Shown here in pieces: positions 631 to 2,721 of a stretch of 64,000 bases of DNA. This DNA is from Chloroflexota bacterium (GTDB lineage: Bacteria > Chloroflexota > Dehalococcoidia > Lucifugimonadales > SAR202-VII-2), in contig QEVV01000003.1 of assembly GCA_003228115.1 (NCBI GenBank), forward strand, positions 141,466 through 205,465, given 5' to 3'. Position numbers and translations under genes: made by a program. Below the pieces are notes generated by a model that was given only the letters and a program-made list of their open reading frames with translations, made no database searches and had not been told where the DNA came from. Numbering within the stretch: the stretch's first letter is position 1; each line of letters begins with the position of its first letter.

Positions 631-779
631 GGCCCTCTGGGCATCGGCGGATCGAGGCCATTGTAGCAGCAACAGTTGCAGCCAACTAGGCTTGTCCATC
701 GCCGAGGGGCTCCGGTAAGATAGCCTTAACAGTTACGAATTCGTTCACACCGCCGGACACCCACAGGAGGATAGACCCC

Positions 780-1754
780 TTGCTGACGACTACAGTTGGA
801 AACTACCCCAAGATAGGGGGAAAGGCCCCAAATCTGAGGGCCGCCAAGAACCGCCTCGACAGAGGCGAGACTAGCCCCGAAGAAGTAGCCCGCATTGCAG
901 ATGAGGTAACGAAAGAAGTCCTTCAGGAGCAGATTGATGCGGGCGTTGACCTTGTGACAGACGGACAAATTCGTTGGGACGACGGCCAGACCTACTTCGC
1001 CCGAGGAATGACAGGCTTCTCCATCAAAGGGCTGACTAGATACTTCGACAACAACACCTACTATCGGCAGCCGGTTGTCGAAGGCAAGATCGGATGGTCC
1101 AGTCCCATATCCACGGACCACTTCACGTTCGCCAGCGGCAACAGCAGCAAGCCCGTCAAAGCAATCCTCACCGGGCCCTATTCACTGGGCCGGTTGTCAG
1201 TACTCGAAGCTGGCTATGAAGGCCTGGGTCCCTTGGTATTGGACCTTGCTGAGGCCTTGAACAATGAAGCGTTGGCCCTGCAGAAGGCCGGAGCCTCGAT
1301 CATACAGTTCGACGAGCCGTGCATCTTGAGGCACCCCGAAGATATAGACCTCTTCCTGGAGGCTTCCGAACGAGTGGTGAGAGGGTTAACCGTGAAAACA
1401 GCGGTTTACACCTACTTTGCCGATGCTTCAAAGGTCGCTGACGGATTGTTGCGATCGCCCTTCCTAATCATAGGATTGGACTTCGCGTCGAGCGACGGCA
1501 ACTGGCAAGTTGTGGAGAAATTCCCGGCTGATAAGGAACTGGGCTTCGGCATCGTGAACGGCCGCAACACTGGCCTAGAAACCGCCGACCAAATAGCCCA
1601 GGCGTGCCAAAGAGTCATGCAGCACGTGCCGCAGGACCGCCTCTACGTGAATCCAAACTCTGGTCTGGAATATCTACCAAGAGAGAAAGCCCAACAGAAG
1701 CTGGAACGACTCGTAGAGGGAGTTAATAAAGCCAGAGAGGTGGTACGTGCATAA
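780..1754 (+). CDS. MetE C-terminal-domain-like (cobalamin-independent methionine synthase family) paralog lacking the Zn-ligand residues
   Basis: LTTTVGNYPK start, LTGPYSLG and QFDEP motifs of the MetE/UROD-like barrel; TTG start preceded by AGGAGG; HxC replaced by YTY and terminal Cys by Ser. Confidence 0.8.
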   Translation: MLTTTVGNYPKIGGKAPNLRAAKNRLDRGETSPEEVARIADEVTKEVLQEQIDAGVDLVTDGQIRWDDGQTYFARGMTGFSIKGLTRYFDNNTYYRQPVVEGKIGWSSPISTDHFTFASGNSSKPVKAILTGPYSLGRLSVLEAGYEGLGPLVLDLAEALNNEALALQKAGASIIQFDEPCILRHPEDIDLFLEASERVVRGLTVKTAVYTYFADASKVADGLLRSPFLIIGLDFASSDGNWQVVEKFPADKELGFGIVNGRNTGLETADQIAQACQRVMQHVPQDRLYVNPNSGLEYLPREKAQQKLERLVEGVNKAREVVRA

Positions 1755-2721
1755 CAACCTGATCACCACTGCGGTCGGAAGCTATCCCAAGCCTCCTCAT
1801 CTCATGGAGGCTCGCGCCAAGGCGGCGCGAGCGCAGATCAGCCGAGACGAGCTGATGGACCTTGAAAAAAAGGCCACTGAGCACTGGATCCGCCTCCAAG
1901 AAGACCTGGACATGGATATCCTTGTGGACGGCGAGATGTACCGGGGCGACATGGCCACATACTTTGCCGAAAATCTGGAGGGTATGGACATCAGCGGATT
2001 GGTCCGTTCCTACGGCAACCGCTACTACCGCAAGCCGGTGGCAACAGGCGCAATAAAGCGCCCAAAGGCAATTACCGTGGATTGGTGGAAGTACTCCCAG
2101 AGCCTGACCGACCGGCCCGTCAAAGGAATGCTCACCGGTCCCTACACCATTGCCGACTGGTCCTTCGACGAGCACTTCGGAAGCCGGGAAGCGTTCGTCC
2201 TCAACCTTGCCCGCGTCATCAATGAAGAAGCCCGCGACCTTCAGGCGGCGGGCTGCCGGTATATTCAAATCGACGAACCCGCTGCGTCGACGAGGCCTGA
2301 AGAAATGGCCCTCGTCGCCGAGGGCCTAAGGGTCTCCACTGAGGGTCTGGACGCGGTGACCATCACGCACATTTGCTACGGGGATTTCGCCACGGTCTTC
2401 GACGGCATTCTTACGCTCCCTGTGGACGTGTTGGACCTGGAGATGGCCAACTCCGACTACCACTTGCTTGAGTACTTCGAGGACAAGAAAACCGACAAGA
2501 TCCTGGCCTTGGGCGTCTTCGATGTGCACCACCATGCCCCTGAGAGCATTGAGGCCATGGAGGCGGGCATTGAAAGGGCACTGAACGTGCTACCAGGGAA
2601 GCAAATATGGGTTACGCCCGACTGCGGCCTGAAGACCCGGACTGAGGAAGAGTCCATGGCCAAGCTGAAGAACATGATGCAGGCCACCAACAACGTACGA
2701 GCCAGGCGCGGACTGAGCTAA
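1747..2721 (+). CDS. Core-MetE-like methionine synthase with intact putative Zn site
   Basis: TTAVGSYPKP, LTGPYTIADWS, QIDEPA, THICYGDF (HxC), LDLEMANSD (E) and VTPDCGLKTR (C) motifs; GTG start overlaps previous gene by 8 bp. Confidence 0.85.
   Translation: MHNNLITTAVGSYPKPPHLMEARAKAARAQISRDELMDLEKKATEHWIRLQEDLDMDILVDGEMYRGDMATYFAENLEGMDISGLVRSYGNRYYRKPVATGAIKRPKAITVDWWKYSQSLTDRPVKGMLTGPYTIADWSFDEHFGSREAFVLNLARVINEEARDLQAAGCRYIQIDEPAASTRPEEMALVAEGLRVSTEGLDAVTITHICYGDFATVFDGILTLPVDVLDLEMANSDYHLLEYFEDKKTDKILALGVFDVHHHAPESIEAMEAGIERALNVLPGKQIWVTPDCGLKTRTEEESMAKLKNMMQATNNVRARRGLS

Follow-up and report, generated by a model that had tools for sequence, protein, structure and literature searches.

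A conserved, probable split methionine synthase (MetE) in a Chloroflexota bacterium, strongly associated with a lack of B12-dependent methionine synthesis

Price and co-workers described split MetE, a two-gene form of cobalamin-independent methionine synthase, from archaea and named a single bacterial bearer, Sulfobacillus sp. hq2 (PMC7857596). The split MetE components PF1268 and PF1269 form a complex in Pyrococcus furiosus, the pair is the only methionine synthase in most halophilic and thermophilic archaea, and methyl pterins were predicted as its methyl donors (PMC7857596). In the published screen, N components had to score higher with PF08267 than with PF01717 (AMET1_0515 was named as a likely false exclusion), and C components had to reach at least 200 bits to PF1269 (PMC7857596). 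Full-length MetE (TIGR01371) carries both barrels as a tandem repeat in one chain. In the N-barrel of the T. maritima enzyme F230, Y232 and D253 are in place and C309 is retained, and K18 and K104 of this barrel contact folate (PMC539065, Pejchal and Ludwig). The core methionine synthases MesA-MesD (core-MetE) are half-size catalytic barrels with a zinc site, for which no N-type partner was described; MesA-MesC have been linked to the corrinoid proteins that serve methanogenesis or the Wood-Ljungdahl pathway (PMC7857596, PMC7005905).

The window, a stretch of 64,000 nucleotides from a Chloroflexota bacterium (contig QEVV01000003.1), contains the following features:

762..779, + strand: Shine-Dalgarno-like sequence (AGGAGG) ahead of the TTG start of the upstream gene
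780..1754, + strand: upstream gene, predicted N-type (silent, folate-side) split MetE subunit, 324 aa, TTG start
1747..2721, + strand: downstream gene, predicted C-type (catalytic zinc/homocysteine) split MetE subunit, 324 aa, GTG start

A preliminary description had reported two 324-aa MetE-barrel reading frames overlapping by 8 bp, which was confirmed by the ORF coordinates and by Pfam. The HMM placement that it had proposed put both proteins in the MetE families: the upstream protein matched PF01717 with 126 bits and PF08267 with 89 bits (cut-off 27), the downstream protein PF01717 with 288 bits. The overlap probably couples translation, so that both subunits would be made together. A riboswitch upstream of the pair was considered and rejected, as Rfam found none in 400-900 or near the gene pair. 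Right after the pair, from window position 2780 onward, begins a short + strand ORF that by look encodes a CDGSH-type iron-sulfur protein (first residues only, judged by eye).

The pair resembles archaeal split MetE (PF1268/PF1269; Halobacteria, Thermoprotei; Sulfobacillus sp. hq2) in its two separate barrels (approximately 320-360 aa), in the position of the N-type gene directly before the C-type gene with a short overlap, and in the restriction of the zinc/homocysteine site to the second barrel, the first being silent. It differs in its bearers, which are Chloroflexota and other bacteria. With full-length MetE it shares the barrels, their order, the active-site residues and the silent-barrel replacements, but it consists of two ORFs without an inter-barrel linker, and the equivalent of T. 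maritima E583 is not conserved. A fused form was sought in 74 related pairs and found in 0/74. The downstream protein has the half-size barrel and zinc site of the Mes families; unlike those as described, it belongs to a pair in which a partner is nearly always encoded, and its genome gave no match to B12-binding_2 or CoFeSP. Very probably, the genes encode a split cobalamin-independent methionine synthase, composed of a half-size catalytic component with intact zinc and homocysteine residues and a separate N-barrel counterpart, which would form a complex.

One of the results that count against split MetE is that the upstream protein gets a lower score from PF08267, the N-domain model, than from PF01717, the catalytic-domain model (89 vs 126 bits), contrary to the published rule. 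This rule is not a defining property of split MetE, and the haloarchaeal N component in locus L053 likewise fails it. Because of this order of scores, the published screen would have missed the window pair. For the C component, tblastn yielded 238 bits to a haloarchaeal homologue (haloarchaeal, not PF1269).

When aligned with E. coli MetE, the upstream protein has Y210, Y212, D234 and S294 at the zinc-ligand positions H641, C643, E665 and C726. The loss of all four ligands, previously noticed in the motifs VYTYFAD, LDFASSD and VNPNSGLE, therefore holds for the window protein but not as a family trait. The fourth position is Cys in 57/74 upstream homologues, as in the ordinary MetE N-barrel, and Ser in only 3/74, so the Ser of the window genome is a minority state. 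The first three positions never form the zinc-ligand set among the 74 homologues: the C643 position is Y, W or F in 73/74, and E665 is replaced by D in 74/74. H694 is R in all 74 as well. Basic residues occupy the folate-contact positions, T. maritima K18 and K104 aligning with R20 and R87 of the upstream protein. These two residues are conserved together with N92; in E. coli numbering, position K20 is R in 67/74 homologues, position K117 is always R (74/74) and N122 is invariant (74/74). Judged from sequence, the residue states of the upstream family are those of the MetE N-barrel, or conservative equivalents.

The downstream protein keeps the zinc ligands as H208, C210, E232 and C293 in the same alignment. 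They map to the motifs THICYGDF (H, C), LDLEMANSD (E) and VTPDCGLK (C), as the preliminary description had it. S12, E63, R92, W138, D176 and H261 are present as well. Among 64 downstream homologues, S433, E484, R515, W561, D599, H641, H694 and C726 (E. coli numbering) are invariant, including the homocysteine contacts S433, E484 and D599 (64/64); C643 is kept in 61/64 and E665 in 56/64. This protein would thus be predicted to bind zinc and homocysteine and to carry out methyl transfer. A point against split MetE is that T or V stands in 63/64 downstream homologues where MetE has its pterin-anchoring glutamate (T. maritima E583, E. coli E605). E186, near this position, is conserved in 61/64; its role is a guess. 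Two zinc-site variants were observed among downstream proteins. In some, the motif THICYG is changed to THTAEYTxTY, with loss of the Cys ligand and insertion of five residues; in a further subgroup the zinc-ligand Glu is Ala (HLAFKN for DLEMAN), with H, C and C retained:

THTAEYTxTY variant downstream genes: L055:5966-6958, L071:6130-7122, L074:5102-6094; also in L010 and L025
HLAFKN variant downstream genes: in L060, L069, L082, L085, L086, L088, L096 and L099

AlphaFold modelled the upstream and downstream proteins confidently as barrels, with pLDDT values of 96.3 and 93.8. The best PDB fold match was MetE for the upstream protein and T. maritima MetE for the downstream protein (TMq 0.93). 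In the tree, N-type barrels (upstream proteins, MetE N-barrels, haloarchaeal N subunits) were separated from C-type barrels (downstream proteins, MetE C-barrels, haloarchaeal C subunits) with support of 100/97. Downstream proteins and MetE C-barrels were grouped with the haloarchaeal C subunits outside (100/99), which places the bacterial pair nearer to fused MetE than the haloarchaeal pair is. The downstream protein grouped with MetE C-barrels, apart from the MetE-like paralogues of the window genome.

For linkage analysis, 84,980 species genomes were scanned with the upstream family, which yielded 164 relatives, and 80 loci were kept. By record titles these belong to Chloroflexota, Omnitrophota, Zixibacteria, Methylomirabilota, Acidobacteria, Dormibacteraeota, Calditrichota and Thermoplasmata or Euryarchaeota, among others; the names are those given to metagenome-assembled genomes, some of which have probably been misbinned. 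The downstream partner lies directly next on the same strand in 76/80 loci from many phyla, which excludes chance and upholds the pair order for which the preliminary description had suggested looking in related genomes. Two of the four loci without partner stop at a contig edge. The other two, both from Zixibacteria (L106, L110), do not; there the upstream gene stands without a downstream gene in the stretch seen, which counts against split MetE. The set of relatives comprised 117 genomes, the window genome among them; in 17 of these the upstream gene was present (identity of at least 52%), with the partner adjacent in 17/17. A 4-bp overlap was the commonest spacing in the 74 pairs compared, and haloarchaeal plasmids carry split MetE in the same gene order, also with a 4-bp overlap. 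No relatives were found in viral contigs, and a viral reservoir was discarded on this ground.

The B12-binding_2 cap domain (PF02607), a domain of MetH and corrinoid methyl carriers, was absent from 16/17 pair-carrying relatives versus 10/100 relatives without the pair (Fisher p 4e-12). The sole pair genome with a match has it in a 261-aa frame, not in a full-length MetH. When counted by family, the domain was absent in 12/13 pair-carrying families. Families f7, f13 and f19 hold both kinds of genome, with carriers lacking PF02607 and some non-carriers possessing it. The association was present but weaker in 300 genomes sampled from the phylum (domain absent in 14/24 pair genomes vs 52/276 others, p 6e-5). 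In this sample some downstream-type hits may have passed the 1e-50 threshold, and the short proteins with weak PF02607 matches may have regulatory functions and not carry methyl groups. Neither B12-binding_2 nor the CdhD/CoFeSP family PF03599 was matched in the window genome, which is approximately 92% complete, so that both absences are uncertain. The pair appears to stand in for B12-dependent methionine synthase, which this genome seems to lack. Full-length or nearly full-length MetE was present in six relatives, all from family f18 and all without the pair. Five relatives (G006, G054, G058, G079, G102) showed none of the three, that is no pair, no full-length MetE and no B12-binding_2 domain. 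In Bacterium HR37, a complete MetH gene (L126:1255-6972) is located directly before the split MetE pair.

The window genome encodes a methylenetetrahydrofolate reductase (MTHFR) fused to homocysteine S-methyltransferase, a second MTHFR-like protein and a further S-methyltransferase. Given the fusion protein and the additional S-methyltransferase, methionine may also be formed without the pair. A homologue of the fusion adjoins the pair in L072, L081, L084, L109 and L115, and Pfam confirmed its MTHFR domains in L072, L081 and L084. From gene content, methyl-tetrahydrofolate is the likely donor: the pair is anticorrelated with PF02607, no CoFeSP match was obtained, MTHFR is present, and it lies beside the pair in these five loci. 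The donor question, which the preliminary description had raised, clearly leans to methyl-folate over a corrinoid protein.

Alternatively, the downstream protein could be a corrinoid-dependent core methionine synthase that is methylated by a methyl-corrinoid protein, with the upstream barrel serving for docking or regulation. Corrinoid proteins are the supposed methyl source of half-size MetE proteins in the Mes families (PMC7857596, PMC7005905), and the poor conservation of the pterin-anchoring Glu in the downstream homologues would fit. However, two residues with which MetE holds pterin and the glutamate tail, the Trp and one Arg, do not vary among the downstream homologues, and corrinoid cap domains are missing from almost all pair-carrying relatives. 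Together with the window genome, which gave neither B12-binding_2 nor CdhD/CoFeSP matches, and the MTHFR genes beside the pair, this makes a corrinoid-dependent enzyme very unlikely. In another reading the pair, as some MetE-like paralogues may, acts on a different thiol from homocysteine and makes no methionine; several such paralogues of uncertain role in the same genome would fit. This is hardly to be expected of a protein with invariant homocysteine contacts that groups with the MetE C-barrels apart from those paralogues, and of a pair that is largely mutually exclusive with the B12-binding cap domain.

Two distant homologues (L103, L105) showed a weak URO-D match besides their MetE matches, as might be seen if the upstream gene encoded an unrelated UROD/MetE-like enzyme that is adjacent by chance. 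With the adjacency conserved as described, the grouping with MetE N-barrels and a fold search that put MetE far ahead of UROD (E 1e-21 vs 2e-8), the probability of this is negligible, and a UROD-like origin was rejected. Clustering with UROD, named beforehand as one outcome that would speak against the proposal, was thus seen neither in residues nor in fold search or tree. Split MetE, with a silent N-type and a catalytic C-type barrel as originally proposed, is borne out by residues, tree and linkage (76/80).

Two-gene MetE, known mainly from archaea, is found to be common among uncultivated bacteria: beyond archaea and a single bacterium, the range of split MetE now takes in many of their lineages. 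The preliminary description mentioned two-gene MetE pairs but under-rated the published split MetE, which includes a bacterial case (PMC7857596). The pair would explain methionine synthesis by B12-lacking members of the order to which the window belongs. Standard annotation could wrongly score genomes that carry it as devoid of methionine synthase or credit them with a corrinoid-dependent core enzyme. It also offers material for testing a two-gene origin of fused MetE. In the free tree, MetE N- and C-barrels fell next to or within the bacterial subunits, on long branches, and trees holding the upstream or the downstream proteins together without MetE were unrejected (AU p 0.21 and 0.34). It is conceivable, though we think it rather unlikely, that bacterial split MetE represents an unfused stage and that joining of two neighbouring genes gave the fused MetE of bacteria and eukaryotes. 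If so, duplication and zinc-site loss would predate fusion.

At least five more MetE-like proteins of approximately 340-400 aa, with HxC or similar zinc motifs, are encoded in the window genome (G000):

MetE-like paralogues, by contig and position: C1:481104, C8:81810, C9:40635, C1:432589, C1:616435, C3:9556
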